Below are positions 528 to 20,470 of a DNA stretch of 20,470 nucleotides, piece by piece. The notes under the pieces are model-generated. The model was not told the origin of the DNA. It saw only the letters and a program-made list of their open reading frames with translations, and searched no databases. The position numbers were made by a program, and so were the translations under genes. How positions within the stretch are numbered: position 1 is the stretch's first letter; each line of letters opens with the position of its first letter. Source of the stretch: a virus; the IMG/VR virus record IMGVR_UViG_3300020169_000150, positions 1-20,470 of that record, one strand, 5' to 3'.

Positions 528-1241
528 ATGGCTATAAAGAAAACCCGAAGACCTAAGAGTAAAAACTACTTTACTCAAGACACAGAAGATGCTATTGTAT
601 TATACAATGGTACTTCTGATACGGACGTAAAAAGTAAGATATATCAAGATCACATTCATTATCCGTTTTTTAAACTAACGGAAAATATTATTCATACCTT
701 TAAGTTTTATTATACTGAGGTAAATGAGATTGAACATCTACAACATGAAGTAATCTGTTTTTTACTTTCTAAAATTCATTTATTTGACCCTACAAGAGGA
801 GCAAAAGCATATTCCTATTTTGGGACTATCGCTAAACGTTACTTAATTCTCCAAAACCAAAAAAATTATAAAAAGAGAGTAGAAAAAGCACCTGTAGATG
901 AGTTATTTAAAGATGATACTCATACTTATAGCATTAGTGACCCAGATTCTGATAAAGATCCACTATCTAAATATATAGATGAATTTGTAAAATATTGTAC
1001 TGAAAATATATTTGAATTATTTCCAAAGAAAAAAGATGCTGAGGTAGCAGATGCAATTTTAGAATTATTTCGTAAAAGAGAAGGTATAGATGTTTTTAAT
1101 AAAAAAGCACTTTATATCTATATTAGAGAAATGGTAGATGTTAAAACTCCTAAAATTACTAAAATAGCAACTCGTCTTCATGTTATATTTAAAAGTAATT
1201 ATATTTTCTATCTCGAAAACGGGTATGTAGAATTCGAATAA
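528..1241 (+). CDS. gp55: T4 gp55-like sigma factor for late transcription
   Basis: The 237-aa product looks like the phage-encoded sigma factor that redirects host RNA polymerase to late promoters. After a basic N-terminus (about residues 4-12, KKTRRPKSK), residues about 40-110 resemble sigma-70 region 2. The clearest part is FDPTRGAKAYSYFGTIAK at 86-103, followed by RYLI; this fits the F-D-P-x-x-G-x-x-A-x-x-Y-F pattern of region 2 core-binding and -10-binding helices in gp55 proteins. There is no obvious region 4, as expected for gp55, which works with a co-activator and sliding clamp instead of a -35 contact. The C-terminal half is helical and charged. T4 gp55 is about 185 aa, so this one is somewhat longer. 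It lies directly upstream of the first TATATTTATA motif (1245-1254), its possible target. Confidence 0.82.
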   Translation: MAIKKTRRPKSKNYFTQDTEDAIVLYNGTSDTDVKSKIYQDHIHYPFFKLTENIIHTFKFYYTEVNEIEHLQHEVICFLLSKIHLFDPTRGAKAYSYFGTIAKRYLILQNQKNYKKRVEKAPVDELFKDDTHTYSISDPDSDKDPLSKYIDEFVKYCTENIFELFPKKKDAEVADAILELFRKREGIDVFNKKALYIYIREMVDVKTPKITKIATRLHVIFKSNYIFYLENGYVEFE

Positions 1242-1244
1242 GGT

Positions 1245-1254
1245 TATATTTATA
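1245..1254 (+). promoter_or_regulatory. Candidate late promoter TATATTTATA, copy 1
   Basis: The 10-mer TATATTTATA lies in the 33-nt gap after the sigma factor gene, with 20 nt between its end and the ATG at 1275. The same 10-mer sits 19 and 20 nt before the ATGs at 14039 and 16715. It resembles both the T4 late element (TATAAATA, here on the opposite strand) and the Bacteroidota -7 element (TAnnTTTG with the G changed). No -33/-35 element is evident, which suits gp55-type recognition. The role is inferred from position only. Confidence 0.5.
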
Positions 1255-1276
1255 CATGAATAAACACTATAAATAT
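1246..1276. repeat. Perfect 9-bp inverted repeat overlapping the start codon at 1275
   Basis: ATATTTATA (1246-1254) and TATAAATAT (1268-1276) are perfect reverse complements separated by 13 nt. The right arm contains the T4 late consensus TATAAATA on the + strand and covers the first two bases of the ATG; the left arm carries the same octamer on the - strand. It could be a weak RNA hairpin over the start, a dyad operator, or divergent promoter elements. An all-A/T stem is thermodynamically weak. Confidence 0.45.
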
Positions 1277-1610
1277 GAGTCAACAATTCGAAAAAACAGT
1301 ATTTGGTAATAAGAAATTCTCGGATTTACTTGAGGAAATCTATAATAACCAAAAGCGCCGCGAAGCACAAGTAACCGCGCTTATATCCGAATTAAAACCG
1401 ATGGTTTCCGACATTGGTGATGCTACACTTATTGTACCCCTCATTAAAGAATACATGGAAATTGGTGTTAAAAATGATGATGCACTAATTAAGATGGCTA
1501 CGTTAGTACAACGTGCTTTAAATTCATCTAGTGAAGATGGTGGTTTAGGTATTAGTGATGAGGAAAAAGCCCAATTACTTGAGGAAATGGAAAAACTTCA
1601 AACTAAGTAA
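1275..1610 (+). CDS. Small helical protein of unknown function in the baseplate cluster
   Basis: A 111-aa, mostly helical protein. The N-terminal half (about residues 10-45) is charged and heptad-like, the middle carries DIGDATLIVPLIKEYMEIG, and the C-terminus is acidic with ISDEEKAQLLEEMEKL, a likely coiled coil. There is no signal peptide, membrane helix or enzymatic motif. The ATG at 1275 is chosen because the conserved-looking sequence begins at once and because a promoter-like motif lies 20 nt upstream. It ends 2 nt before the gp5-like gene, so both are probably translated from one late transcript. It could be a virion accessory protein or a chaperone for tail assembly; I do not recognise a named family. 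Confidence 0.75.
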   Translation: MSQQFEKTVFGNKKFSDLLEEIYNNQKRREAQVTALISELKPMVSDIGDATLIVPLIKEYMEIGVKNDDALIKMATLVQRALNSSSEDGGLGISDEEKAQLLEEMEKLQTK

Positions 1611-1612
1611 TA

Positions 1613-2845
1613 ATGCCCGGACCTCTAAAATCAGGACAAACCCTATATAAAAGTTTAGGGAGTATAGTAAACAATTCTACTAGAGATAGTCTAAAAAATC
1701 TTACAGGTAAATTTTTATCTGGGAGAATTTTAGATATAGATCAAAGTGGAACTTCTACTAATGGCACTGCTCAAGTACAAATTTTAGATGAAATACAATT
1801 AGGGGGGGCTAATATTTTGGTTAATGTTTTACCTTTATTTCCTAATTTAAAAAATTACCCTTTAACTAATGAAACAGTATTAGTTATAGCTTTAGCAAAT
1901 AAAGAATTTAAAAATAATTTTAATAATTTAACTTTTTATTATTTATCACCTTTAAATTTATGGAATAGTAATCAAGTAAATCCTATCCCTTACCCTACAG
2001 AAACTGTAACTCCTGAAAGTCAAAATAAAGGGGTTTTAGAGGTTGAAGCCGTAGGTAACCCTAATAAACCAACTTCATCTTCAAACACTACCTTAACCCC
2101 AGGTTTATATTTTAATGAAGATAATATCCCAAACCCTACTTTTCCTTATGAAGGTGATTATATTATAGATGGTAGATTTGGTAATTCATTAAGATTTGGT
2201 AATACAGTCCCTAATGAAATTGTACCAGTACAAAATAATTGGTCTACTACAGGTAGTATAGGTGATCCTATTACCATTTTAACCAATAAAAAACATACAG
2301 AACAACCTACATTTAATTCAATTACTGAAGATATTAATTTAGATGGTTCGTCTGCTTATTTTACTTCTACACAAAAGATTCCAATTGAGGTATCCTCACA
2401 AAATAGTTATCTTTCTTATAATACTCCTCCTGTAATTCCTAACCAATATATAGGAAAACAAGTTATTTTAAATTCTGGTAGACTATTATTTAACTCTACT
2501 CAGGACCATATCCTACTATCCTCAGCAAAGAGCATTAACTTAAATACTGTAGAATCTGTTAATATAGATGCTGCCACACAAACCGTTATACAGACACCGG
2601 AATTATATCTTGGTGGTATAGAGACGGCCCAACCTGTAGTTTTAGGTAATGATTTAGTAGATTTATTAACTAAAATATTAAACGATTTAAGTTTTTTAAC
2701 TGGGGCTCTTCAAAATCAATTAGGTGTGCCTGTTGGTTCTCCTATAGGTCCCACAAACTTAGTAGCCCAAGCTATAAATGATAAAATAGGAGGTTATAAA
2801 GCAGAATTATCTAATATATTATCTCAAACTACTAAGACTGTATAA
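1613..2845 (+). CDS. gp5-like baseplate spike protein (OB-fold, no lysozyme domain)
   Basis: A 410-aa protein probably forming the central puncturing spike under the tail tube. Residues about 35-115 look like an OB-fold: GRILDIDQ, then beta-strands ending in NYPLTNETVLVIAL and FYYLSPLNLW. Residues about 180-260 carry GDYIIDGRFGNSLRFG, GDPITIL and EDINLDGSSAYFTSTQKIP, a pattern I associate with gp5-like proteins of marine T4-like phages. Residues about 297-335 (ILLSSAKSINLN, SVNIDA, ELYLGG) have the short-strand rhythm of a spike beta-structure, followed by a helical C-terminus. T4 gp5 has a lysozyme domain between the OB-fold and the beta-helix; no lysozyme segment is visible here. The stop overlaps the next start by 1 nt (TAATG at 2843-2847). 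Confidence 0.68.
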   Translation: MPGPLKSGQTLYKSLGSIVNNSTRDSLKNLTGKFLSGRILDIDQSGTSTNGTAQVQILDEIQLGGANILVNVLPLFPNLKNYPLTNETVLVIALANKEFKNNFNNLTFYYLSPLNLWNSNQVNPIPYPTETVTPESQNKGVLEVEAVGNPNKPTSSSNTTLTPGLYFNEDNIPNPTFPYEGDYIIDGRFGNSLRFGNTVPNEIVPVQNNWSTTGSIGDPITILTNKKHTEQPTFNSITEDINLDGSSAYFTSTQKIPIEVSSQNSYLSYNTPPVIPNQYIGKQVILNSGRLLFNSTQDHILLSSAKSINLNTVESVNIDAATQTVIQTPELYLGGIETAQPVVLGNDLVDLLTKILNDLSFLTGALQNQLGVPVGSPIGPTNLVAQAINDKIGGYKAELSNILSQTTKTV

Positions 2846-3837
2846 TGTTAGATCCTAAGAAAGTAATAGAACAAAGAAAGCAAAAAGAACAACTCAAACA
2901 GGATAGAGTTGAACAAGCTGAACTAACTTCTACGGATATTGAAGGTATTAATAATGCCGTAACTGAGGATCAAAAACCTAAAGGTTTACAAAAATTGGGA
3001 TCTTTAGTTTTAAAACAATCCCAAAAATTATCTAAGTTTGTAATCCCATTAGCTTTTAATCTTATTAAAGAATATGGTATAGATAAATTAGAAACTGCAT
3101 TAGAGGAAGAAAGTGATAATATAGATGAATTAAAAGAACAACTTAAAGAAGAATTTTGTAACGTTCAATTACCTCGTATTATAGAACAAAGGAATAACGC
3201 TGTAGACTATTTAAACAACACAGGTAAAATTTTAGACGCATTAACTTTAAGTGTAGATTTCGGAGCCTCGTTTGCTAAAATATTAGAGGATTTAATTAAA
3301 ATATTAAGAGGGGCAAGTTTTACAATAAATCAAGCATCCAAAACTATCCCCCTAATCCCAGGTGCAGTAGTATCAGCAGTTAACGATTTAAATACTATAG
3401 CTGATACTGTAACATTTAAATCAGATGGTACTCCTAATATACCACCATTAAAAATTACAGCTGCCCAAGTATCCCCAGCATTTGCTACAGTACAAAATAC
3501 AATTGTACGATGTGTAGATTTACTTGATAGATTAGATATTTTAATTACATTATGTAATCCTAATGCTAATCTAACTGGAATATCAGATTCAATTAACAAT
3601 ATATATGAAAATGAATTAGTAGCTAAAGCTTCTGAAAATGATGGTACTTATAAAGGTTTTATTTTAGAAATAGAATCTAGACCATTTACTGATACCGTAA
3701 ATCAAAACAGAGCAGTAGGAAAAAACAGATCTGGGATTATAATGATATCAACAGAATATTCATTTGCATCAAATCCTCAAGTATTAATTGACGAACTTAA
3801 ATTTATTATTGACAGAGACGATTTAAAAGCGTATTAA
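2845..3837 (+). CDS. Virion or baseplate-hub protein of unknown function
   Basis: The 330-aa product starts with a highly charged Lys/Gln/Glu helix (residues about 3-27), then a hydrophobic and amphipathic helical core (about 45-170) with LIKILRGASFTINQASKTIP, and ends in a compact alpha/beta segment (about 265-330) with GFILEIE, a Val-Gly-Lys-Asn-Arg turn and SNPQVLIDELKFIIDRDDLK. It begins at the TAATG junction with the spike gene, so it is probably made in a fixed ratio with it. Its position between spike and wedge genes suggests a hub, tail-length or assembly role, but nothing in the sequence settles this. Length alone argues against a tape-measure protein. Confidence 0.7.
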   Translation: MLDPKKVIEQRKQKEQLKQDRVEQAELTSTDIEGINNAVTEDQKPKGLQKLGSLVLKQSQKLSKFVIPLAFNLIKEYGIDKLETALEEESDNIDELKEQLKEEFCNVQLPRIIEQRNNAVDYLNNTGKILDALTLSVDFGASFAKILEDLIKILRGASFTINQASKTIPLIPGAVVSAVNDLNTIADTVTFKSDGTPNIPPLKITAAQVSPAFATVQNTIVRCVDLLDRLDILITLCNPNANLTGISDSINNIYENELVAKASENDGTYKGFILEIESRPFTDTVNQNRAVGKNRSGIIMISTEYSFASNPQVLIDELKFIIDRDDLKAY

Positions 3838-3840
3838 ACC

Positions 3841-3850
3841 AATATTTATA
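3841..3850 (+). promoter_or_regulatory. Near-match to the candidate late promoter (AATATTTATA)
   Basis: AATATTTATA differs from the shared TATATTTATA by one base. It lies in a 16-nt gap but only 3 nt before the ATG at 3854, too close for a -10 element of that gene. If functional it would start transcripts inside the 3854 gene and serve gp25 and later genes. Weak candidate. Confidence 0.22.
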
Positions 3851-3853
3851 ACC

Positions 3854-4222
3854 ATGAAATTAAACGAATTAAGAAAAGTAATTAGAGAAGAAGTAAAAGC
3901 TGCTATCCAAGAGGAGTTAAAAGATATCCTCTTAGAAGCTGTTCGTTCACCAAAAACTGTAGTAACTGGAACTACACCACAACAAAATACTACACAAGCT
4001 CTCCCTGAAGATGATAAAGCTAAATTAAGAGAAAATATGATGGGTGTTTTAGACGGCATGAAACCAGGACAAGATACACTAAGTTTTAATTCAACTGATG
4101 CTCGTAATATGGGAGGTAACTTACAAGTTGCCCCGGGCATGAATACATCAGGTGAAGGCAGCCAATTACCAGCAGGAAATGTAGGTTTAGACCAAATTAT
4201 GGGTCTAATGAAAGGTAAATAA
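3854..4222 (+). CDS. Small protein with charged N-terminal helix, unknown function
   Basis: A 122-aa protein. Residues 1-30 form a strongly charged amphipathic helix (MKLNELRKVIREEVKAAIQE onward), the middle is Thr/Gln/Pro-rich and probably disordered, and the C-terminal half is Gly/Met/Asn-rich, ending in LDQIMGLMKGK. The start is well supported because the helix begins at the ATG and there is no alternative ATG nearby. It has no signal peptide or enzymatic motif. Located between the hub-side genes and gp25, 5 nt before gp25, it could be a virion accessory or assembly factor. I have seen this type of N-terminal helix in marine phage proteins without a defined function. Confidence 0.7.
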   Translation: MKLNELRKVIREEVKAAIQEELKDILLEAVRSPKTVVTGTTPQQNTTQALPEDDKAKLRENMMGVLDGMKPGQDTLSFNSTDARNMGGNLQVAPGMNTSGEGSQLPAGNVGLDQIMGLMKGK

Positions 4223-4227
4223 TTTAA

Positions 4228-4635
4228 ATGGCTTTTAACCCTCGCATAATACCAGCTACTGACTTCCAACCAAACGTTGGAGTAGGGGTTAATTTACCTT
4301 TTTCAACACCACAGTGTTTTCAAAGTAATTATACAAGTAAAGATGCTATTAAAGCTAATTTAATTAATTATTTTTTAACAGAACCTGGAGAAAGACCAGA
4401 TAACCCTTTATTTGGTGGTGGTTTACGAAGTTTTATTTTTGAACAAATTTCAACTGGTACTTTAGGTGGGATTGAAGATGATATTAGTGAAAAAATTGGT
4501 ACTCAATTTCCATCTATTAAGTTAAATGGTATCGAAGTTGGGGCTATAGAAGATCAAAATACAATTAAAGTAGTAATAAAATATTCAATACCACAACAAG
4601 GGGTATCAGATGAAATTGAAATTAACTTTGGATAA
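4228..4635 (+). CDS. gp25: gp25-like baseplate wedge protein (GPW/gp25 family)
   Basis: The 135-aa length matches T4 gp25 (132 aa). The family hallmark is the helix and loop NLINYFLTEPGERPDNPLFG (residues about 44-63), including the E-P-G-E-R motif, followed by GGLRSFIFE. The C-terminus is a beta-strand region (IKVVIKYSIP, DEIEINFG). In contractile injection systems gp25 binds the gp6 core bundle in the wedge and helps connect the sheath to the baseplate. That neighbour is the next gene, and the two overlap by 1 nt (TAATG at 4633-4637), matching their tight physical partnership. This is one of the most secure calls in the window. Confidence 0.92.
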   Translation: MAFNPRIIPATDFQPNVGVGVNLPFSTPQCFQSNYTSKDAIKANLINYFLTEPGERPDNPLFGGGLRSFIFEQISTGTLGGIEDDISEKIGTQFPSIKLNGIEVGAIEDQNTIKVVIKYSIPQQGVSDEIEINFG

Positions 4636-6494
4636 TGGCACAAGCAAGAGACATAAAATATCTGAATAAAGATTTTGCTGAATTTAGATCAGCATTAATT
4701 GATTATTCTAAAACATATTTCCCTACAACCTATACAGATTTTACTGAGGCTTCTCCTGGTATGATGTTTATGGAAATGGCATCTTATATTGGTGATGTTT
4801 TATCATTTTACCAAGATAATCAAATCCAAGAAACTTTCACTCAGTACGCCCGTAGATTTGAAAATTTATTTGACTTAGCATATGTAATGGGGTATAAACC
4901 TCAAGTTACAGGTGTAGCTACTACGAATTTAGATTTTTACCAAACAGTTCCAGCATTATCATCTGGTCCAAATATTTTTCAACCCGATTATAACTATGCT
5001 TTATTAGTAGATGAAAATGCTCAAATAGGCTCTTCTGCTGATGCTAAAATTAATTTTATAACAGAAGATACTATAGATTTTACAGTTTCAAGTTCAATAG
5101 ATCCAACTGAAGTTACAGTTTATACTGTAGATGGTGGTAATAATCCAACTACATATCTTTTGAAAAAAACAGCAAAAGCAATTTCATCTACTATTAATAC
5201 AACAACCATTTCAGCAGGTTCAACACCCCAAGAATTTTTTACAACAACTATAAATGCTCCTAATATTGTAGGTATTTTAGATATAGTAGATTCTGATGGT
5301 AATGTGTGGTACGAAGTACCTTATTTAGCTGAAGAAATGGTATATGATTCAATTCGTAACACTAACCCTAATGATCCAAATAATTATTTAAATGAAGGTG
5401 ATGCGCCTTATTTGTTACAATTAAAACAAACACAACGTAGATTTGCTACTCGTGTTATTAATAGTGGTTCATTAGAAATTCAATTTGGAGCGGGCACATC
5501 ACAAGATGTAGAAGAAGAAATTACTCCTAATGCTGATAATGTGGGATTAGGTTTACCCTTTGAAAAGAATAAACTTACAACTGCTTACTCACCAACTAAC
5601 TTTATATTTACTCCTACTTACGGTATAGCACCTACTGGCGACTTAACTATAAGATATTTAACTGGGGGTGGTGTTGGTGCTAATGTTAATGCTAATACAT
5701 TAACTAATATAAAACAAATTAATAAAACATTTACTAATTTTAGTAATACAGATCCAGGAGGTTTATACCAACAATCTTTTGATTCATTAGTAACAAATAA
5801 TCCAAACGCAGCTTCAGGAGGTAGAGGAGGAGATAGTATCGAAGAATTAAGACAAAATATTATTTCTAATTTTAGTACTCAATATAGAACAGTTACCCCT
5901 GATGATTATACAGTAAGGGCTTTATCTATGATTCCCAAATATGGAAAAATAGCAAAAGTTTATACTGAAAAATCTAAAGCATCTGCTAATACAGGTACTA
6001 ATGTAGACTTATATGTTTTAGCTTCTAATAGTAATGGAAATTTGACTACAGCAAGTTCAACATTAAAACAAAATTTATCAACTTATTTATCTCAATTTAG
6101 AACAATTGGTGATTCTGTAGCTATTAAAGATGCTTTTATTATTAATATTGGGGTAGATTTTGAAATTATAACTTTACCTAATTTTAATAACAATGAGGTT
6201 TTAAGAAAATGTATTATAGCCCTTCAAAATTACTTTAATATTAGAAATTGGCAAGTAAATGAACCTATTATTTATAGAGATGTTTTTAATCTTTTAGATA
6301 AAATTGAAGGAGTTCAAACTGTAAAAAATGTTTTCTTTACTAACAAAACTACAACAGATGGAGATTATTCTCAATATGCTTATGATGTAGAAGGTGCTAC
6401 TATAAATCAAGTATTATATCCTTCAATAGATCCTATGGTATTTGAAGTTAAATTCCTTAATAGTGATATTAAAGGTAAAATTGTAAACTTATAA
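4635..6494 (+). CDS. gp6: gp6-like baseplate wedge protein (baseplate J family)
   Basis: A 619-aa protein, close in size to T4 gp6 (660 aa). The N-terminus (residues about 5-95) has the wedge pattern with DFTEASPGMMFMEMASYIGD and a helix reaching FENLFDLAYVMGY, followed by beta-rich domains. Residues about 388-442 hold the baseplate-J core: NPNAASGGRGGDSIEELRQN and then RTVTPDDYTVRALSMIP. The C-terminus ends in beta strands after a helical segment. gp6 dimers form the iris-like ring of the inner baseplate and hold gp25 and gp7-type proteins. The start overlaps the gp25 stop by 1 nt, and the next gene begins 2 nt after its stop. Confidence 0.88.
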   Translation: MAQARDIKYLNKDFAEFRSALIDYSKTYFPTTYTDFTEASPGMMFMEMASYIGDVLSFYQDNQIQETFTQYARRFENLFDLAYVMGYKPQVTGVATTNLDFYQTVPALSSGPNIFQPDYNYALLVDENAQIGSSADAKINFITEDTIDFTVSSSIDPTEVTVYTVDGGNNPTTYLLKKTAKAISSTINTTTISAGSTPQEFFTTTINAPNIVGILDIVDSDGNVWYEVPYLAEEMVYDSIRNTNPNDPNNYLNEGDAPYLLQLKQTQRRFATRVINSGSLEIQFGAGTSQDVEEEITPNADNVGLGLPFEKNKLTTAYSPTNFIFTPTYGIAPTGDLTIRYLTGGGVGANVNANTLTNIKQINKTFTNFSNTDPGGLYQQSFDSLVTNNPNAASGGRGGDSIEELRQNIISNFSTQYRTVTPDDYTVRALSMIPKYGKIAKVYTEKSKASANTGTNVDLYVLASNSNGNLTTASSTLKQNLSTYLSQFRTIGDSVAIKDAFIINIGVDFEIITLPNFNNNEVLRKCIIALQNYFNIRNWQVNEPIIYRDVFNLLDKIEGVQTVKNVFFTNKTTTDGDYSQYAYDVEGATINQVLYPSIDPMVFEVKFLNSDIKGKIVNL

Positions 6495-6496
6495 TT

Positions 6497-6793
6497 ATGG
6501 GATTAAAAAATAGATATGATAAATCTGTAGCATCTGGAGTAGGATTGGCATCCGAAAACCCAGAAATAGCTCCACCAAAACAAGGAAATCCTGAAGCTCA
6601 ATTTAAAGGTTCTAATTTAGACTTAGAATTTAAAGCACCTTTAGGGGGTCCTATTAATGTTGCTTATAATACCCAAATAGGTAGTGAATATAAAAGTTTT
6701 ACAACAACACAACCATATACACCTAAGAACACTTATATAGATAGTTTACAGAGTGATGAATTAATAAGAAGGGCTAGCGACCCAATAAGATAA
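6497..6793 (+). CDS. Small proline-rich protein of unknown function
   Basis: A 98-aa protein rich in Pro, Gly, Asn and Lys (for example PEIAPPKQGNPEAQF at about 24-38), probably extended or disordered, with a short C-terminal helix containing DELIRRASDPIR. There is no signal peptide, membrane segment or catalytic motif. It sits 2 nt after gp6 and 5 nt before the DNRLRE-like gene, so it is certainly in the late operon. Extended small proteins in such positions can act as clamps or connectors in the baseplate, but that is inference from position alone. Confidence 0.65.
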   Translation: MGLKNRYDKSVASGVGLASENPEIAPPKQGNPEAQFKGSNLDLEFKAPLGGPINVAYNTQIGSEYKSFTTTQPYTPKNTYIDSLQSDELIRRASDPIR

Positions 6794-6798
6794 ATATT

Positions 6799-7932
6799 AT
6801 GGCAGTATATAAACTTTTCCCATATAAAGATACATCCTTATACTCTATGTATTCAGCCATGAATACAGGTATTGATCCAATAAATCAAGTATCTAACTTA
6901 AATTTTGCTATAGATAGTAATCCTTCTGTAGCTCGATCTTTACTTGCTTTTGATAATCAAGAAATTCAAAATGTAATAAATAATAAAGTAATAGGAAATT
7001 GGGATGCTTATTTAAAATCTTACATAGCAACAGCTCAAGGTGTAGTGGAAGATTCTATCTTAGAAGTTTTTCCTATCTATGATAGCTGGAACATGGGTAC
7101 AGGTACTTATTTAGATGAACCTATAACAAAAGATGGAGCATGTTGGGATTCACCTCAATTTGGAGGTGGGGGTGCTTGGAATATTGGCGGTCCTTCTTTA
7201 GGATATACTAGTTCATATAATCCAACCTATGCACCCCAAGGTGGGGGTTCGTGGTATGCTAGTTCTTCAGATGGTACTATTACTTATCCATTAACACAAT
7301 CATTTGATCCTAGAAGTGATAAAGATTTAAATATTAAAGTTTCTTCAATGGTTGAAGATTGGTATAGTAGTTCTTTAAATAATAATGGATTTATTTTAAA
7401 ATGGGAAAATTCTGCCGAATTTAATACTAGTAAATTAGTACAACCCGTACTCCAATATTATACAGTAGATACTAATACTATATATCCACCTGAATTAGAA
7501 ATTAGATGGGATGATTCAACATGGAATACAGGTTCCTCAACAACAACCCAATTGTTCCAACCTAATGCTTTTATTGAATTAGCAGAAAACCCAGGAATAT
7601 TCTATTCAGAAAGTATTAATAGGTTTAGATTAAATGTAAGACCTAAATACCCTGCCCGTGTATGGGCAACTTCTTCTTTGTATACTAAACAATATTATTT
7701 ACCATCTGGTTCATCTTATTATGCTATTAAAGATTTAGATACTAATGAGTATGTAGTAGATTTTGATAGTAATTATACTAGAATTAGTGCAGATGTTTCT
7801 TCTAGTTATTTTGATATATACATGAACGGTTTAGAACCCGAAAGATATTACAAAATATTAATCCAAGTTACTTCGGAAGGGAGTACAACAATTTATGATG
7901 ATAATTACTACTTTAAAGTAGTTAATGGATAA
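6799..7932 (+). CDS. DNRLRE/CBM96-like beta-sandwich baseplate or fibre protein
   Basis: The 377-aa product opens with KLFPYKDTSLYSMY and the pattern SVARSLLAFD (about residues 44-53), the typical entry to DNRLRE-type domains (small-x-x-R-S-L-L-x-F-D). It continues with EVFPIYDSWNMGTGT, DGACWDSPQF and a Gly/Trp-rich loop, then strands including SSMVEDWYSSS and NGFILKWE, where these domains normally have V-x-x-W and N-G-F-x-L. Such beta-sandwiches act as carbohydrate-binding or structural modules. A second beta-rich part (about 260-377) ends with an Ig/FnIII-like strand pattern (GLEPERYYKILIQV). The next start overlaps its stop by 1 nt. I infer a wedge-attached or fibre-attachment protein; the domain call is by pattern only. 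Confidence 0.6.
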   Translation: MAVYKLFPYKDTSLYSMYSAMNTGIDPINQVSNLNFAIDSNPSVARSLLAFDNQEIQNVINNKVIGNWDAYLKSYIATAQGVVEDSILEVFPIYDSWNMGTGTYLDEPITKDGACWDSPQFGGGGAWNIGGPSLGYTSSYNPTYAPQGGGSWYASSSDGTITYPLTQSFDPRSDKDLNIKVSSMVEDWYSSSLNNNGFILKWENSAEFNTSKLVQPVLQYYTVDTNTIYPPELEIRWDDSTWNTGSSTTTQLFQPNAFIELAENPGIFYSESINRFRLNVRPKYPARVWATSSLYTKQYYLPSGSSYYAIKDLDTNEYVVDFDSNYTRISADVSSSYFDIYMNGLEPERYYKILIQVTSEGSTTIYDDNYYFKVVNG

Positions 7933-8465
7933 TGAAAGAACAAGTAAATTTAACAAGAAATTCATTTAGTAAAACACAATACCCAAAGGTAATTGATACT
8001 GAATTTTCTCAATTAACACCTCAAGTTAATGAGCCTGTAGCAGTACAAGATGTATCTGTTGATGAATTTTTTGTTTTATATGATAAATTATTTTTTGATA
8101 TCCCTCAAAGAGGTAGTAATTCACATGAAACTTTAATTACGACGAGTACTGAATATATTGGTTATAATCCTTTAACAACCGAAATAGAAGCTTTACAACA
8201 AGAAATTACTGAATTAAGAAGACAATTATTGGATGAAAGAGGAAGCGCTTTAAATACCATTGCTGATGTATTAGATACAGCAGGTTTAGATCTTCCAGAA
8301 CTCCCAACCCTCCCTAATTTAGATGTACCATCAGAATTTAGTGTTGATGTAAATATGAATGTTGATCAGGGGGAAGAAAAGTCGCGTAAAGAAAAACGTA
8401 AAGAACGTAGAGAAAAACGCAAAGAAGAAAGACAAGAACGTAGAGAAGAAAGAAGAAATAATTAA
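7932..8465 (+). CDS. Coiled-coil protein ending in an E/K/R-rich charged helix
   Basis: A 177-aa protein of unknown function. Residues about 84-105 form a heptad-like coiled coil (TEIEALQQEITELRRQLLDE). A Leu/Pro-rich linker (about 117-135, LDLPELPTLPNL) follows, and then an extreme C-terminus (about 148-177) made almost only of Glu, Lys and Arg. That composition resembles ER/K single alpha helices. The DNA of the tail is purine-rich on the + strand (about 8370-8460) and mixes CGT and CGC Arg codons with AGA, the triplet that dominates elsewhere. It starts at a TAATG junction and lies 2 nt before the large tail gene, so it may partner one of those proteins. A nucleic-acid-binding role for the basic tail is possible but unsupported. 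Confidence 0.7.
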   Translation: MKEQVNLTRNSFSKTQYPKVIDTEFSQLTPQVNEPVAVQDVSVDEFFVLYDKLFFDIPQRGSNSHETLITTSTEYIGYNPLTTEIEALQQEITELRRQLLDERGSALNTIADVLDTAGLDLPELPTLPNLDVPSEFSVDVNMNVDQGEEKSRKEKRKERREKRKEERQERREERRNN

Positions 8466-8467
8466 TT

Positions 8468-12115: not shown

Positions 12116-12127
12116 AGATAATCTACT

Positions 12128-13978
12128 ATGCCTACTATAACAAATACAGGGACTATTAAAAGCATTACTGCTTTAGGAAATGGGCAATTTAAAATTGACC
12201 TAGTAGATGGTTCTTACCCAATTGTTGATAATAATCCTGCTACAGGAAATTTTAATTCTGGTACAGTTAATTCATCTTTAATTGTATTAGATCCCTATGC
12301 TAATATTCCTAATTTAGCATATTCTGACTTTAATGCTGTTATTAATAATGCTTTGATCCCAAGACAAAGTAATATTTTCTGGGATTTAGATTATTCTACC
12401 AATGCTATACAAGCAGTAAATCAAGAAGCAGTAATATCTGCATCTCAACAAGATGGTGATTTACCTAAAGCTTTTATTCAAGATTATAACTATTATTCAA
12501 CTCCTATTTTAAGACGTAATTATTTAGGAGCTAAATCAACATCCCCAGATTTTAATGAATTAGCTGTAGAAGGTGGTTTTGGTCAATTACCTGTAGTACA
12601 AAGTGAAGGATATTACTTTGCTTATTTTAATTGGGTAGGAGGTACATCTCCTGAATGGGGTAATGGACTAGAAGATAGAAGTGCGGTAAATATTAGATAT
12701 TATATAGGTGAAGACGGAAATGTAATTGAACCTATTAATGATTCTGATGGTATTAATCTTAGTATTGTACAACAAGGTTTTGAACAAGACTCAAATGCAA
12801 TTTTAAGTTTTAATGATAAAGAAGGTGCTACTTCTAATTTTTCAAATTTAGAGGGTAAACATAAAATATTTAAAAGTGGTCAAATCCCAAAACCTATTAC
12901 TTATTCACAAACACAAAGCATCTCGGATACTACCCCAGGTGGTTTTACAGGTTCTTTAAATTTTATTCAAGGTGACCAACAAGAAGGAGCAATAGGGGAT
13001 TACAGATTAACAGCAAATGCTACTTCAGCTATTATACAAAACCCAGGTACAGTAGCATTTACAAACCCACCCCAATTTAAAGGTACACTTGCCGATTTTA
13101 ATGGTACTTTATATGAACCTAAAACAAACGACCCTTCAGGTACAAACCCAGTTACATCTTTAACATTTACAGCTCTTGTATCTCATAGTATTCAAGGTGG
13201 TCCTGTAAATGGAGCAAATGCTACTTTTTTCATACAAAAAAATTCAAATGGAGCAGGTTGGGTTGATGTAAGTTCAAATATAGGAAATGTAATAGAACCT
13301 GGTGTAGTAGATAATATTCAATTAGTATTTACAGACCCAAATGCTACCACAGATGATGATTATAGACTTCAAATAACATCAGCCAATGATGGTGGTCAGG
13401 GTCAATTTGTAACTATTGATTCAACAACTTCTTTTAAAGTATCTCAGACCCCACCACCACAAATTGGACCTAAAGGTCCAGGTGCTCCTGGAGGTGCAAA
13501 TTATTGGGAAATAGTTTCAGGTGCTTCTGTTCCTAAAATTAAACCAAAGGCATTAATGGATGTTTATGGTCAAAAACAACAAAATATAGAAGATGACGTT
13601 AATGGAAATCCTGTAGGTTTTAGCCCTATTACATTTGATTTTACTGTTGAAATAGGTGATGAACTTAGATTCCAAGGTACAGAAACACAAACTTACACAG
13701 TAGTAGATATAGATAATTCTCCTGCTAATGGTGATCCTTTACATCTAATTTTAGATAGAGAAATTTCTTTAGGTAATTCAAATTTAAATTCAAATACTTT
13801 AATGAATTGGTTCTTACATAGAAGATATGTAAGTGACCCTTCATATATAATATTAGAAGTAGATAAACCTGCAGGAGGTACAGCTCCAGGTGTATTAACA
13901 CCTGAGTATTTTTATGGGGCAACAGAAGAAAAAGTAGATAGTATACTTAAAGACCTTACAAAAGATAGATTAATTTAA
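12128..13978 (+). CDS. Large beta-rich tail or fibre-associated protein
   Basis: A 616-aa virion protein of unrecognised family. The N-terminus (about 1-45) has short beta strands, and residues about 130-190 include NYYSTPILRRNYLGAKSTSP and a Trp/Gly-rich loop. The middle (about 290-440) is Ser/Thr/Asn-rich beta structure, possibly Ig-like or jelly-roll. Residues 447-456 form a short collagen-like stretch (GPKGPGAPGG), a probable hinge, before a C-terminal beta domain and a final charged helix (EEKVDSILKDLTKDRL). It is the last gene before the 60-nt gap, so it probably ends a transcription segment or is read through. It may be a wedge or fibre-base protein, but there is no catalytic motif to confirm this. 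Confidence 0.68.
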   Translation: MPTITNTGTIKSITALGNGQFKIDLVDGSYPIVDNNPATGNFNSGTVNSSLIVLDPYANIPNLAYSDFNAVINNALIPRQSNIFWDLDYSTNAIQAVNQEAVISASQQDGDLPKAFIQDYNYYSTPILRRNYLGAKSTSPDFNELAVEGGFGQLPVVQSEGYYFAYFNWVGGTSPEWGNGLEDRSAVNIRYYIGEDGNVIEPINDSDGINLSIVQQGFEQDSNAILSFNDKEGATSNFSNLEGKHKIFKSGQIPKPITYSQTQSISDTTPGGFTGSLNFIQGDQQEGAIGDYRLTANATSAIIQNPGTVAFTNPPQFKGTLADFNGTLYEPKTNDPSGTNPVTSLTFTALVSHSIQGGPVNGANATFFIQKNSNGAGWVDVSSNIGNVIEPGVVDNIQLVFTDPNATTDDDYRLQITSANDGGQGQFVTIDSTTSFKVSQTPPPQIGPKGPGAPGGANYWEIVSGASVPKIKPKALMDVYGQKQQNIEDDVNGNPVGFSPITFDFTVEIGDELRFQGTETQTYTVVDIDNSPANGDPLHLILDREISLGNSNLNSNTLMNWFLHRRYVSDPSYIILEVDKPAGGTAPGVLTPEYFYGATEEKVDSILKDLTKDRLI

Positions 13979-14009
13979 AAGTTAATTTGGCATAAACTTA
14001 AAAAAAACA

Positions 14010-14019
14010 TATATTTATA
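14010..14019 (+). promoter_or_regulatory. Candidate late promoter TATATTTATA, copy 2
   Basis: An exact copy of the 10-mer lies in the largest intergenic gap (13979-14038), with 19 nt between it and the ATG at 14039. A TTTG lies at 13986-13989, with 20 nt between it and the motif, which fits a Bacteroidota -33 element; the other exact copies show no such partner. A palindrome, AATACGTATT (14024-14033), lies between the motif and the start. No convincing hairpin plus T-run terminator is seen in the gap. Confidence 0.55.
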
Positions 14020-14023
14020 ATTA

Positions 14024-14033
14024 AATACGTATT
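14024..14033. repeat. 10-bp palindrome AATACGTATT upstream of the 14039 gene
   Basis: The perfect palindrome AATACGTATT ends 5 nt before the ATG. It could be a small operator or leader element downstream of the candidate promoter. The overlapping decamer CGTATTAAAC also occurs at 3830-3839, just before the 3854 gene. Short palindromes of this size are common by chance in AT-rich DNA. Confidence 0.3.
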
Positions 14034-14038
14034 AAACA

Positions 14039-14698
14039 ATGGGATATTTAAATAATTCGGTAGTAACTGTAGATGCTATCCTTACAACTAAGGGTAGAGA
14101 GTTACTTGCTAAAAATGATGGTTCATTCAGAATTACACAGTTTGCATTAGCGGATGATGAGATTGATTATACACTTTATAATCCAACCCATCCATCAGGT
14201 TCAGCTTATTATGGTCAGGCAATTGAAAATATGCCTTTACTAGAAGCATTCCCTGATGAAACTCAAATTATGAAGTACAAACTTACTACTTTACCTCGTG
14301 GTACTGCTAAGATGCCAATCTTAGATGTAGGTTATACTAATATTGTAATTAAACAAGGAGCTTCATTAGCAATTACCCCACAAACACTAAATTATTTAGG
14401 TGGTAACCAAAACGAAGCTAGTGGTTACACAGCTACTATTTCAGATGTTAGATTATTATCTACTTTTGAAGGTGTTGGTATCGATTCACCTCAAACAAAT
14501 GCTTTAAATGTTAATTCAACAACTACACTAGGTACTAACGTATCTGCAACAGTAGTAGGTACAACAATTAACCTTAGAGCAACCACAGTTAATACATTAT
14601 TTGGTGCTAACACTGCATTATACGCTACAATGACAATTGTAGGTAGAGATAGTGGAGCAAGATTACAAGTCCCAATCACTATAACTAAAGTATCCTAA
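14039..14698 (+). CDS. Virion structural protein of unknown fold
   Basis: A 219-aa protein. The N-terminus, with VVTVDAILTTKGRELLAK (residues 8-25) then ITQFALADDEIDYTL, resembles a group of short virion proteins common in marine T4-like phages; this is recalled pattern, not a database result. The C-terminal half (about 100-219) is Thr/Val/Asn-rich beta structure and could be an Ig-like or decoration domain. There is no signal peptide or membrane segment. It begins the segment after the largest gap and has its own candidate promoter, so it may be made in large amounts. The next gene follows after 2 nt. A capsid-decoration or tail-exterior role is possible; I cannot choose between them. Confidence 0.7.
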   Translation: MGYLNNSVVTVDAILTTKGRELLAKNDGSFRITQFALADDEIDYTLYNPTHPSGSAYYGQAIENMPLLEAFPDETQIMKYKLTTLPRGTAKMPILDVGYTNIVIKQGASLAITPQTLNYLGGNQNEASGYTATISDVRLLSTFEGVGIDSPQTNALNVNSTTTLGTNVSATVVGTTINLRATTVNTLFGANTALYATMTIVGRDSGARLQVPITITKVS

Positions 14699-14700
14699 TT

Positions 14701-15729
14701 ATGTCATTTAATAGATTAGAAGCAGACGACTTTGTAGTATCAGCTGATAGTATTACAGCTGGTATATTTACTGATAGTCAAATCCCAACTATCACAACAT
14801 TTTTTACTTCTTCCACTCAAAGAACAAGTAACTCAGGTGATTATTACTTAAACGTATTTTCAAATGCAGCAACTTCCTCTTTAGAATTCGCAGTTACTTA
14901 TGGTAACGAATTAGGAAGTGGTAGTCAGGCATACAATTTAGATGTAGATGGTAAATCACCATCTTCAACAGTTTACGGTCAATACCGTACTTTAGTATTA
15001 GGTGATGAAAATGCTGATTTTACTTTTGGTAGTATTACATCATCGGATTTTTGGGCTGTATCAATGGAAAGAAGTAGATATAAAGAATCTATATTCCCAG
15101 GTTCAACAACTTTATTATTAAGAGGTCCAGATGGTGTTATCTCATTAACTGATAATAGCCAAGTTGCCTCTTCGGTTGTATTTAATGATGCAGGTAGAGT
15201 ATTCCAATTAGTATCAGGTTCAGCAGGTACAGTATTTACAACACTAGAATCAAATGGATATAGTATTGATTCAGGTTCATATGGTTTATTCTTACCAGAT
15301 ATTGCTACTTATATTTTAAACCCAAGAGCATTATCTAATGATGAAGCTGATGGAGGTATTGGTTTAGATGCTACTTTAACCTCAGCACTTACAGCAACAG
15401 ATAGTCCAAACTTAAATACAATATTTACAGCAATTACCCATTCAAACGCTTCATCATTTACAGCAAACTCAGAAGAAACAATTACTTCAGATTTTGTATT
15501 TGTAAGACCTAGAAGTTCTCAGTTTAATTACTCAGAAAACCCATCATTTATTTCGGGTTCAACAGGTGAAGTATTATACTCTTCATTTATTAATGCACCT
15601 ACAACATATATTACAACTGTAGGTTTATACAATGATACTAATGAGTTATTAGCTGTAGCTAAACTTTCAAAACCACTAGAGAAAGATTTTACAAAAGAAG
15701 CTCTTGTTAGAGTTAAGCTAGACTTTTAA
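14701..15729 (+). CDS. Virion structural protein with a C-terminal domain shared with the next gene
   Basis: A 342-aa protein. The N-terminal region (about 1-110) starts MSFNRLEADDFVVSADSITA and is beta-rich with Ser/Thr loops; residues about 110-260 carry further beta segments. The last 69 residues (274-342) include NPSFISGSTGEVLY and TTVGLYNDTNELLAVAKLS, and align by eye with the last 72 residues of the next product (253-324), so both proteins probably attach to the same partner or form the same oligomer interface. No enzymatic motif is seen. The gene is 2 nt after its upstream neighbour and 5 nt before the downstream one. A baseplate, fibre or tail-sheath-associated role is inferred from position. 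Confidence 0.75.
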   Translation: MSFNRLEADDFVVSADSITAGIFTDSQIPTITTFFTSSTQRTSNSGDYYLNVFSNAATSSLEFAVTYGNELGSGSQAYNLDVDGKSPSSTVYGQYRTLVLGDENADFTFGSITSSDFWAVSMERSRYKESIFPGSTTLLLRGPDGVISLTDNSQVASSVVFNDAGRVFQLVSGSAGTVFTTLESNGYSIDSGSYGLFLPDIATYILNPRALSNDEADGGIGLDATLTSALTATDSPNLNTIFTAITHSNASSFTANSEETITSDFVFVRPRSSQFNYSENPSFISGSTGEVLYSSFINAPTTYITTVGLYNDTNELLAVAKLSKPLEKDFTKEALVRVKLDF

Positions 15730-15734
15730 AATGA

Positions 15735-16709
15735 ATGAGTACATTCAAACAATTTTTATCACAAGACGTAATTGTAGAACCCTTTAAAGTAAATAAGGGG
15801 TTCTCATTTCCGTCTCCTGAATTTACAGATAATGATGTCCAAATTGACAGATTAATAGGCCTTAATGGAGATTTTGAATTTACTCAATCTTTAACAGGTA
15901 ATAATAATGATCAATATGGAGTTTTAGTTTATGATTCTGCTAAAGAATTATATTACTCTAACTTTTTAACATCATCTGCTGGTTCTCCGTTACAAACACA
16001 AAGTTCATTTCCTGGAGAAAATGAAACAGGAGATGTATTTGTAGGTAACCCTGATTCCGCAGGTAGATATGAAAATTATCTTCAATCTACAGATGATGTA
16101 GTTAGATTTTTCCCAACAGGATCTAGTAATCAAATTTTCGTACTTTCAATTCCTTCCCGTTTATGGGGTGATTATATCCAACCTAATTCTTTCGAGTATA
16201 AAGTTATAGATGCTGATAATATTACTCATATTATTACTGATGATGGTAATGGAAATCTTTATATAGGAGGAGTTTATGTAGGTAATATTATATATCCTCA
16301 TGGAATAGCAGTATTTACTAAATTACAAGATAATGCTCCCCCTGCTCCTGAAGGATATGGTATATCTGAATATGGAGAAAATGTATATGGTGGGGGAATT
16401 TCTCTAGCAGATTTAACTGGGGTTAATGTAACTTGTTCATTCTCTAGTTCATTTGACATATATGAAACACAATATAAAGCTACTATAAATGAATTTGAAT
16501 ATAATTTTAGTTTAAACCCCTCAATTATATCAGGTTCTACAGATGGTACAGTCTATGATTTTGTAACTAGTTCTTATTTTTCACCTTACGTTAGTACAGT
16601 AGGACTATATGATAATGACCAAAATTTACTTGCAGTTGGGAAATTATCCCAACCACTCCCAGTATCAAGAACAACAGATACTACTATATTTATAAACATA
16701 GATAGATAA
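15735..16709 (+). CDS. Paralogous-tail virion structural protein
   Basis: A 324-aa protein beginning MSTFKQFLSQDVIVEPFKVN. An ATG four bases earlier (15731) is in another frame, so 15735 is the start. The body (about 25-215) is beta-rich, with FFPTGSSNQIFVLSIPSRLW, EYKVIDADNITHIITDDGNG and GNIIYPHGIAVFTK. The C-terminal domain (253-324) matches the one in the previous gene product (NPSIISGSTDGTVYDF, STVGLYDNDQNLLAVGKLSQ). The conserved surface of the C-terminus and the different N-terminal bodies suggest two proteins built on a common attachment domain. The fibre gene starts 5 nt after its stop, and the promoter-like motif for that fibre lies within its last codons (16685-16694). Confidence 0.75.
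   Translation: MSTFKQFLSQDVIVEPFKVNKGFSFPSPEFTDNDVQIDRLIGLNGDFEFTQSLTGNNNDQYGVLVYDSAKELYYSNFLTSSAGSPLQTQSSFPGENETGDVFVGNPDSAGRYENYLQSTDDVVRFFPTGSSNQIFVLSIPSRLWGDYIQPNSFEYKVIDADNITHIITDDGNGNLYIGGVYVGNIIYPHGIAVFTKLQDNAPPAPEGYGISEYGENVYGGGISLADLTGVNVTCSFSSSFDIYETQYKATINEFEYNFSLNPSIISGSTDGTVYDFVTSSYFSPYVSTVGLYDNDQNLLAVGKLSQPLPVSRTTDTTIFINIDR
16685..16694 (+). promoter_or_regulatory. Candidate late promoter TATATTTATA, copy 3
   Basis: The exact 10-mer lies inside the last codons of the 15735 gene, with 20 nt between it and the ATG at 16715. The same distance as the copy before 1275 and the position upstream of a very large fibre gene support function, though the motif must also encode residues here (Thr-Ile-Phe-Ile). 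No -33/-35 element is seen. Confidence 0.45.
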
Positions 16710-16714
16710 TTACA

Positions 16715-19700
16715 ATGGGAAAAGGAACCAATAGACTAGAAAAAATATTTGACCCTACAGTTGATGAAATCAACCAGGGATTTACTATAAATGCTTGGCA
16801 CGTATCACAATCAGTTAATGCTTTTACAGGTACTGGAAGTTATGATATTGATATTGAAGGAAGTTTAACTATTAGTGGTTCAATTTATCATGAACTAGCT
16901 CAAGATGCTTCCGGTGTTTTAAACAATGTAGTAGTTAGAGATACAACTACTGGAGAATATTTTATTACAGGTTCCTATGGTGATGCAGCCGGTACTTCAG
17001 GCTCATCAGGCTCATCAGGTACATCAGGTAGTTCGGGCTCTTCTGGCACTTCAGGTTCTTCGGGCTCTTCGGGTACCTCAGGTGCTGATGGTTCAAGCGG
17101 TAGCTCTGGTACATCAGGCGCTGATGGTTCAAGTGGTTCATCAGGTACATCAGGAAATTCAGGTTCATCAGGTTCATCAGGTACTTCAGGTTCATCAGGC
17201 TCATCAGGCACTTCAGGTGCTGATGGCTCATCTGGTACTTCAGGTGCTGACGGTTCAAGCGGAAGTTCAGGCACTTCAGGAGCAGATGGTTCTTCAGGCT
17301 CATCTGGTACTTCAGGAGCAGATGGTTCTTCAGGCTCATCTGGTACTTCAGGAGCAGATGGTTCTTCAGGTAGTTCAGGCACTTCAGGTGCTGACGGTTC
17401 AAGCGGAAGTTCAGGCACTTCAGGAGCAGATGGTTCATCAGGTTCATCAGGTACTTCTGGTGCTGGTGGTAGTTCAGGTAGCTCAGGTACCTCAGGTGCT
17501 GATGGTTCAAGCGGTAGCTCTGGTACATCAGGTGCTGATGGTTCAAGTGGCTCATCAGGTACATCAGGAAATTCAGGTTCATCAGGCTCATCTGGTACTT
17601 CAGGAGCAGATGGTTCTTCAGGTAGTTCAGGTACTTCAGGTTCATCAGGAACCTCAGGCTCATCAGGTTCATCAGGAACTTCGGGTTCATCTGGTAGTTC
17701 TGGTACATCAGGTTCTTCGGGTGATGGTAGAGCTTTAATATCTTTAGATGAAGGTAGTCAATTAACATCTGATACTCTTTCTCTTAATTTTACAGGTGCT
17801 GGTGTAACAGCAACTCAAATAAACGATAATGTAACAGTCACTATCCCAGGTGGTGGTGGTGGTTCTGGTTCATCAGGATCTTCAGGTACTTCTGGTTCTT
17901 CAGGCTCATCTGGCACTTCAGGTCAAGCTGGTTCAAGTGGTTCATCAGGTACCTCAGGAGTAGCGGGTTCATCAGGTTCATCTGGAACTTCAGGTTTAGC
18001 AGGCTCAAGCGGTAGCTCAGGTACTTCAGGTCAAGCTGGTTCAAGTGGTTCTTCAGGTACATCAGGTCAAGCTGGTTCAAGTGGTTCATCAGGAACTTCA
18101 GGGGATTCAGGCTCATCAGGCTCATCAGGTACCTCAGGAGCAGATGGTTCATCAGGTAGCTCAGGTACCTCAGGAGCAGATGGTTCTTCAGGTAGCTCAG
18201 GTACCTCAGGTGCTGATGGTTCAAGCGGAAGTTCAGGAACTTCAGGGGATTCAGGCTCATCAGGCTCATCAGGTACTTCCGGGGTAGATGGTTCAAGTGG
18301 CTCTTCAGGTACATCTGGAACAGGTAATGCTATTACAGTTATAGATGAATCTACAACATTAACTACAGACGTATCTCAATTTACTTTTACAGGTGCGGGT
18401 GTAACAGCTACTAATAGTGGTACTGATGTAACAGTCACTATCCCAGGTGGTGGTGGTGGTTCTGGCTCATCAGGCTCATCTGGTACTTCAGGCTCTTCAG
18501 GCTCTTCAGGTACTTCAGGTCAAGCTGGTTCATCAGGGTCTTCAGGTACCTCAGGCGAAGCAGGTAGCTCGGGTTCATCAGGTACTTCAGGAGATTCAGG
18601 TTCATCAGGTTCTTCAGGTACATCGGGTCAAGCTGGTAGTTCAGGTTCATCTGGTACTTCAGGAGATTCAGGTTCAAGCGGTAGCTCAGGTACTTCAGGA
18701 GTAGGTGGTTCATCAGGCTCATCAGGTACTTCAGGGGATTCAGGCTCATCAGGCTCATCAGGTACTTCAGGAGCAGATGGTTCTTCAGGTAGTTCAGGTA
18801 CTTCAGGTCAAGCAGGTTCAAGTGGTTCCTCAGGTACCTCAGGCGAAGCAGGTAGCTCAGGTAGCTCAGGTACTTCAGGGGATTCAGGCTCATCAGGCTC
18901 ATCAGGTACTTCAGGCGAAGCAGGTAGCTCAGGTAGCTCAGGTACTTCAGGCTCATCAGGCTCATCAGGTACTTCAGGCGAAGCAGGTAGCTCAGGTAGC
19001 TCAGGTACTTCAGGTCAAGCTGGTAGTTCAGGTTCATCAGGTACCTCAGGTCAAGCTGGTAGTTCAGGTTCATCTGGTACTTCAGGTGAAGCAGGTAGCT
19101 CGGGTTCATCAGGTACCTCAGGTCAAGCTGGTTCAAGTGGTTCTTCAGGTACCTCAGGCGAAGCAGGTAGCTCAGGTAGTTCAGGTACTTCAGGTCAAGC
19201 TGGTAGTTCAGGTTCATCTGGTACTTCAGGTGAAGCAGGTAGCTCGGGTTCATCAGGTACCTCAGGTCAAGCTGGTTCAAGTGGTTCTTCAGGTACCTCA
19301 GGTACTGGTCAAGCAATAGAAATTTTAGATAATGGTTCTTCAATTACAACAGATGTAGAATCTATTAATTTTGTAGGGGCTACTATTACTGAACCTACAG
19401 CTGATAATGTGACAGTAACTATCACCGGTGGTGGTGGGGGTTCACAAAATTTATTCAATACAGCTTCAGTTGCTAATAATGGAGTAACACAGGCTGCTTC
19501 TACATTTATATTAGCAGATGCTGTTGATGACCAACTTACTTTTGATTTTAGAAATTTAGTTTCAGGTTCATCAGATCCAACAAATGATAAAATCATTATT
19601 TCCTCCGCACCAAATCCTCAATTTTTAACTAGAAAAAATGATGAATCAGGAGAGGGTGGTCTTCAGTCAGTATTAACTACATCAAATCAAATATGTACTT

Positions 19701-20175: not shown

Positions 20176-20470
20176 ATGAATTGGTTATATAAAGGGGAAA
20201 AAATGACTTCTTTGGAGTCATTTCCCCCTTCAACATTCGGTTTCGTATATAGAATTACTCACATTCCTAGTGGTAAAGCTTATATAGGAAAAAAATTCGT
20301 TAAATTTACTCGTAAAGCTAAATTAACTAAAAAAGATTTAGCATTGTATGAAGGTACTAAAGGTAGAAAACCATCATATAAACAAGTAGTTAAAGAAAGC
20401 GATTGGCAAACATATTGGGGTTCAAATAAAATCTTAACTAATTTATTAGAGAACGAACCAATAGAGAATT
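20176..20470 (+). CDS. GIY-YIG family endonuclease, 3' truncated by the window edge
   Basis: 98 codons are visible; the frame is open at the window end. The first motif is GFVYRIT (residues 22-28, in place of G-I-Y) and the second AYIGKK (35-40), a spacing of about 11 residues typical of GIY-YIG nucleases. The catalytic Arg helix and Glu would lie further on and cannot be confirmed fully; the segment SDWQTYWGSN (75-84) matches a group of phage-encoded members that I recall as free-standing endonucleases. It starts 11 nt after the fibre stop. In T4-like phages such genes are often mobile, homing-type elements next to structural genes. The ATG at 20176 is preferred for its N-terminal residues, though an in-frame ATG at 20203 exists inside a hairpin stem. 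Confidence 0.75.
   Translation, partial: MNWLYKGEKMTSLESFPPSTFGFVYRITHIPSGKAYIGKKFVKFTRKAKLTKKDLALYEGTKGRKPSYKQVVKESDWQTYWGSNKILTNLLENEPIEN
20192..20230 (+). other. Hairpin in the first codons of the endonuclease gene
   Basis: ATGACT (20203-20208) pairs with AGTCAT (20216-20221) around a 7-nt loop, and the outer arms AAGGGG and CCCCTT extend the stem across a small A-bulge. The in-frame ATG at 20203 lies inside the stem. It is not followed by a T-run, so an intrinsic terminator is doubtful; it may regulate translation or cover the second start. Confidence 0.5.

Follow-up and report, generated by a model that had tools for sequence, protein, structure and literature searches.

A conserved ATATTTATAA element before predicted late units of a T4-like myovirus and its probable link to an adjacent sigma-70-like protein

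The locus and the element within it

We analyzed a viral sequence of 20,470 bases, constituting the whole of IMG/VR record IMGVR_UViG_3300020169_000150 and here called the window, with regard to a gene for a sigma-70-like protein and to a short A/T-rich element, ATATTTATAA, that recurs ahead of start codons (Table 1). Every gene of the window runs rightward, and gp25-like and baseplate-J/gp6-like genes of T4-like myovirus type are present. The nearest named relatives were Flavobacterium phage immuto (genus Immutovirus, with a complete genome of 160 kb), Microcystis phage Mel-JY01 and the uncultured jumbo phage LR756508. The window phage was akin to a marine Flavobacterium virus, close relatives were found on hundreds of IMG/VR contigs, and the gene order of sigma-like protein, 111-amino-acid (aa) protein, gp25 and gp6 was common to the window and immuto. 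The phage belongs to an Immutovirus-like clade of T4-like myoviruses, most likely with a Bacteroidota host.

A preliminary description of the window, made from its letters only, had drawn attention to a 10-mer, TATATTTATA, present in three copies that end 19 or 20 nucleotides (nt) before ATG codons and expected less than once by chance. Both statements were confirmed. The exact 10-mer was found at 1245-1254, 14010-14019 and 16685-16694, solely on the + strand, with 20, 19 and 20 nt to ATG 1275, 14039 and 16715, respectively, and dinucleotide shuffles of the window gave 0.32 expected copies on that strand as compared to the three observed (probability of at least three, 0.015). Allowing one mismatch gave 13 copies in the window versus 14.3 expected, thus no excess. 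With the significance in the window being moderate and the one-mismatch excess nil, the proof therefore rests on the relatives. These supported the core of the 10-mer but not its leading T, which is T at 26 of 110 sites; the conserved unit is instead ATATTTATAA, and the sites counted follow the consensus (A, or A/C in immuto)TATTTATAA, then A-rich sequence. An additional, fourth copy, of ATATTTATA, lies at 3842-3850 and had been overlooked because only 3 nt separate it from ATG 3854.

Table 1. Features of the window discussed in the text, with predicted late units named after the element that precedes them.
Feature	Coordinates	Strand	Remarks
Sigma-70-like protein, 237 aa	528..1241	+	gp55-like N-terminal segment; region-2-like domain at about 44-117; extra helical C-terminal domain at about 140-237
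Putative late promoter element ATATTTATA, site 1	1246..1254	+	20 nt to ATG 1275; retained in 95/96 distinct relatives
Predicted late unit 1	1275..3837	+	Three genes (111, 410 and 330 aa), family match for none; internal starts 1613 and 2845 without motif
Putative late promoter element ATATTTATA(A), site 2	3842..3850	+	3 nt to ATG 3854; retained in 86/88; predicted leaderless or near-leaderless
Predicted late unit 2	3854..13978	+	122-aa protein, gp25-like wedge (4228), baseplate J/gp6-like (4635), more tail/baseplate-region genes up to 13978
Putative late promoter element ATATTTATA(A), site 3	14011..14019	+	19 nt to ATG 14039; retained in 62/62; shared with immuto and, in the form ATATTTAT, with Mel-JY01
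Predicted late unit 3	14039..16709	+	Three genes; starts 14701 and 15735 without motif
Putative late promoter element ATATTTATA(A), site 4	16686..16694	+	20 nt to ATG 16715; within 3' end of preceding gene; retained in 7/8
Predicted late unit 4	16715..20164	+	1149-aa GSSGTSG-repeat protein

Orthologous starts from IMG/VR relatives were gathered for all 18 gene starts of the window, with genes on contigs called by a simple open reading frame procedure, and the presence of ATATTTAT or TATTTATA was scored in the 45 nt upstream. The motif was present at four starts (1275, 3854, 14039 and 16715), in the fractions of distinct upstream sequences listed in Table 1. Of the 14 remaining starts, 13 had it in 0-3% of the relatives and one, 6799, in 10% (7/73), the latter being the only internal start of late unit 2 with any motif. 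At three sites, with 39-41 sequences compared at each, the 8-base core also did not vary, the mean major-base frequency in the 30-nt flanks being 0.51-0.63. For that comparison the relatives were thinned to <80% flank identity and the sites anchored on ATATTTAT, making the invariance partly one of construction, and the unbiased measure of conservation is given by the fractions from the 18-start survey. In relative L120, the copy in the coding end before 16715 had been lost and a new copy was found right before the ATG. The core being retained amid diverged flanks, together with this relocated copy, shows that selection acts on the element and not on the adjoining sequence.

At site 1, ATATTTATA at 1246-1254 is paired with a perfect inverted counterpart of 9 bp, TATAAATAT, which lies 13 nt away at 1268-1276 and overlaps ATG 1275. 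The TATAAATA at this ATG was seen in 28 of 96 relatives and accounts for the sole minus-strand ATATTTATA of the window. This pair may represent a leftward promoter, an operator or chance. Reading the TATAAATA that overlaps ATG 1275 as a T4-type promoter was rejected, since that sequence was not enriched genome-wide (6 versus 4.2 in immuto; 2 versus 2.8 in relative G001).

Distribution of the element across genomes and its spacing to start codons

Random placement across the genome, which the preliminary description had named as the outcome that would speak against a promoter, was not what we found. Of the ATATTTATA copies counted in immuto and in five further genomes or large contigs (150, 130, 114, 79 and 70 kb), 133 lay on the coding strand and 12 on the opposite one. 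When all 8-mers upstream of 617 genes were ranked, without prior choice of motif, ATATTTAT came first (109 versus 7.0 expected) and TATTTATA second (87 versus 7.7). As a positive control, the same type of ranking had TATAAATA at the top for part of T4; for P-SSM4 it came second, after its overlap ATAAATAA. Genome-scale counts and start conservation thus agreed with the earlier suggestion of a non-random, late-promoter-like motif tied to the starts of late units.

In immuto, the element preceded 16 of 67 genes of the structural modules versus 8 of 166 genes elsewhere (p=5e-5), with terminase, gp20, sheath, tube and tape-measure genes among those having it. Of the gaps of 20-40 nt, 65% contained it, as compared to 1.4% of those shorter than 5 nt, and T-runs upstream of it were commoner than at other starts (odds ratio 4.1, p=7e-6); short gaps behind T-runs fit a promoter that follows a terminator. 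Upstream of the core, no column exceeded 0.25 bit over the 110 sites, hence no -33/-35 element was found. The same genomes carried a second class of element, composed of GTTG or TTTGG, about 19 nt and TTC(G)TATATTTA(GG), ahead of small early-type genes and, unlike the late element, with a clear upstream TTG. In immuto this early element was found at none of the 67 structural-module genes and at 18 of the 166 others (p=0.002). The early class was also seen as GTTG or TTTGG, about 19 nt and TTCGTATATTTA(GG) before small genes (L164-L166 of immuto; L251-L289).

In Mel-JY01, ATATTTAT was likewise enriched (18 versus 3.3), with many copies located about 33-37 nt ahead of ATG and the orthologue of site 3 also having a copy; Shine-Dalgarno-type leaders were found at 28% of its starts versus 4-8% in the immuto clade. 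This phage (PP395634.1) is named as a Microcystis phage, yet for its baseplate and sigma genes the closest match is Flavobacterium phage immuto; in its use of Shine-Dalgarno-like leaders it differs from the immuto clade.

The spacing of 19 or 20 nt, earlier taken as constant, did not generalize, as the distance from motif to start ranged from 3 to about 30 nt. With each site counted once, the gap that separates TATTTATA from the start codon was 3-5 nt at 14 sites, 6-8 nt at one and at least 9 nt at most, with a peak at 13-16 nt. Among orthologues of gene 3854, 78 had a gap of 3-5 nt, none 6-10 nt and 28 a gap of 11-19 nt. In immuto, gp048 at 142474 is one of the genes with a 3-5 nt gap, for which the predicted 5' end is the AUG if the mRNA is leaderless. 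This bimodal spacing, of 3-5 nt or at least 8 nt, suggests that some of the late mRNAs are leaderless: transcription would start about 3-6 nt past the element, with the start codon either forming the 5' end or being kept at a minimum leader, and leaders of 1-4 nt would be avoided. The -7 box of flavobacteria spans -12 to -5, and in Flavobacterium psychrophilum leaderless mRNAs make up 5.5% (PMC9723704), which makes leaderless late mRNAs plausible for such a host.

The sigma-like protein and the remaining genes of the window

The gene upstream of the first copy, described earlier as gp55-like, does encode a sigma-like protein, with its stop codon ending 3 bases ahead of the 10-mer; its assignment to the gp55 type was only weakly backed by sequence, with E-values of about 1e-3 and an additional C-terminal domain of about 98 aa. 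Matches to Sigma70_r2 were weak (4e-4 to 1e-2 with hmmscan), with the region-2 motif visible in the alignment, and the NCBIfam matches, also weak, were all to sigma factors. The family most often matched was phrog_234 (late sigma, gp55 profile), found with 14 of 55 relatives at a best E-value of 8e-4, and in a six-frame search with phrog_234 the sigma-like gene was the only match in each of relatives G002 and G001 and in immuto. Using hhalign against gp55 of T4 and cyanophages, the N-terminal segment and region 2 were aligned at an E-value of 0.0016 with a probability of only 16%. In that alignment Y14 and Y26, invariant in sets of 20 and of 55 sequences, were paired with Y10 and W23 of T4, and the N-terminal aromatics of T4 gp55 at positions 10 and 23 have been described as absolutely conserved (PMC2988020). 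Direct BLASTP against T4 gp55 gave no match, nor did the A1 profile against PDB sequences. An AlphaFold 2 model had a predicted local distance difference test score (pLDDT) of 80, and the top list from Foldseek against PDB contained mostly sigma factors, each at E>0.05 and hence used as a pattern only.

The last 98 residues (window 945-1238) form a helical domain modeled at a pLDDT of 91 and conserved throughout the clade, for which no PDB match was found. Considering this domain as sigma region 4 was rejected, the model being good but the assignment unsupported by any PDB match. With regard to position, the sigma gene of relatives G002, G003 and G005 and of immuto follows the last of the early-type promoters and immediately precedes a late element. 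The immuto counterpart is gp118; for the sigma of Mel-JY01 the identity was 36%.

Toward the right end, the protein encoded at 16715-20164 consists mostly of GSSGTSG repeats, with a G+C content of about 0.5 versus 0.3 in the surroundings. The gene at 20176-20470, truncated at the end of the record, matched a PHROG labeled "NAD synthetase" at 1e-17, as its immuto orthologue is annotated; since the same gene also matched homing endonucleases, more weakly, this label looks doubtful.

Interpretation and relation to known systems

Judged from its conservation, strand and placement, the motif very likely acts as a promoter. We further consider it probable that ATATTTATAA is a -10-type late-promoter element read by the sigma-like protein of 528-1241, a pairing that we infer from the position of the sigma gene, from analogy with layouts having no -35 element, and from Mel-JY01 sharing both the motif and the sigma family. 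Several points weigh against this interpretation. The link to gp55 is weak, at E-values of about 1e-3; 8 of the 24 immuto copies are found ahead of non-structural genes; LR756508, having a sigma relative of 40% identity, had no enrichment of ATATTTAT in the 260 kb examined; and orthologous sites are not phylogenetically independent. The 3-nt gap at site 2 is also awkward unless the mRNA is leaderless or, alternatively, gene 3854 is translated from read-through RNA.

An alternative is that the motif serves as a promoter for the host polymerase with its own sigma-A, as a variant of TAnnTTTG, or with another phage factor, while the sigma-like protein serves otherwise. The window copies do read TATATTTA, as the early class does, and LR756508 has a relative of the sigma without an enriched motif in the 260 kb examined. 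We nevertheless hold this to be unlikely, with the T of TAnnTTTG so poorly kept at the 110 sites, no G and no -33 element, with a distinct early class having an upstream TTG in the very same genomes, and with Mel-JY01, in spite of its Shine-Dalgarno-type leaders, sharing the motif together with the sigma family. Still less probable is an element acting in translation or at the mRNA level, such as in ribosome binding or as a processing site. The motif is always close to start codons, and Flavobacteria, in which Shine-Dalgarno sites are lacking, use other initiation signals (PMC6847099). However, the motif is confined to starts of transcription units and almost never found at tightly spaced internal genes, its gap to the start codon varies between 3 and 30 nt and reaches about 33-37 nt at many Mel-JY01 sites with Shine-Dalgarno-like leaders, T-runs precede it, and one copy lies within the upstream gene. 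That the element would be a T4-type TATAAATA late promoter on the other strand, firing leftward, is highly improbable, for although TATTTATA is its exact reverse complement and both flanks are A/T-rich, the element is placed directionally, ahead of start codons and behind T-runs, the strand bias is reversed in P-SSM4, and nearly all genes run rightward so that leftward promoters would yield antisense RNA only.

Under the promoter reading with the sigma-like protein as the recognizing factor, host RNA polymerase with host sigma would read the early promoters (TTTGG or GTTG, about 19 nt, TATATTTA). The sigma-70-like protein, as a product of the early region, would then take the place of the host sigma and steer the polymerase to ATATTTATAA, which would require no -33 element. 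Starting a few nt downstream, transcription would produce late mRNAs with short leaders, or without leaders at gaps of 3-5 nt, for the tail, baseplate, head and terminase units. Predicted 5' ends are located 2-8 nt after [AC]TATTTATA for late mRNAs and after TATATTTAGG for early ones. More tentatively, and with somewhat less than even confidence, we propose that, in an aquatic phage clade that is abundant and has not been studied, a clamp-independent, two-domain gp55-like sigma reads ATATTTATAA as a late-promoter class apart from that of T4, with a bimodal spacing making some of the late mRNAs leaderless. The motif was unreported in the open literature searched; the original immuto paper lay outside that coverage, and an earlier mention is possible. 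Late operons on uncultured phage contigs, which number in the hundreds, could be annotated with this promoter signal, and phage immuto 2-6A, grown on Flavobacterium sp. LMO8, offers a test system that can be cultured.

The textbook example of a phage sigma factor combined with a replication-coupled clamp activator is late transcription in T4. In the T4 late promoter, an element of 8 bp is located one turn ahead of the start; the sequence downstream is A/T-rich and a -35 element is absent (PMC2988020). The system studied here resembles that of T4: a phage sigma-like factor has a region-2 domain and an N-terminal segment with conserved aromatic residues, and an 8-bp A/T element near -10, with A/T-rich sequence downstream and no -35 element, would drive virion genes. 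It differs in that the element is ATATTTATAA instead of TATAAATA, with the core TATTTATA being the exact reverse complement of the T4 element, and in that the sigma carries the extra C-terminal domain where T4 gp55 has a short clamp-binding tail. Furthermore, the gp45-type clamp families PF09116 and PF02916 stayed below cut-off in immuto, relatives G001-G003 and Mel-JY01, a very divergent clamp being possible, while PF09116 was detected in T4 and P-SSM4 and PF02916 in T4. As the consensus differs and these clamp families were undetected, we do not file the system as a T4 late system. T4-like cyanophages, with late promoters of NATAAATA in S-PM2 and others (PMC2984593), are similar in placing late elements ahead of structural genes, but they retain the TATAAATA polarity, gp33 and gp45, in contrast to the reverse-complement element and the lack of a detected clamp here. 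Bacteroidota sigma-A recognizes a -7 TAnnTTTG at -12 to -5 (PMC9723704) and TTTG near -33 (PMC7366714). The early promoters found here look like a TTG-plus-TATATTT variant thereof and the late element shares TATTT, although without the -33 element, the G and the conserved first T. The idea of a blend between TATAAATA and TAnnTTTG was thereby not upheld, since the first T is not conserved and the G is absent, with TATAAATA itself unenriched in the clade. A lineage that has kept a phage sigma and the layout without a -35 element, with another element and no detectable clamp, would show which parts of the T4 system are dispensable and how sigma specificity evolves.

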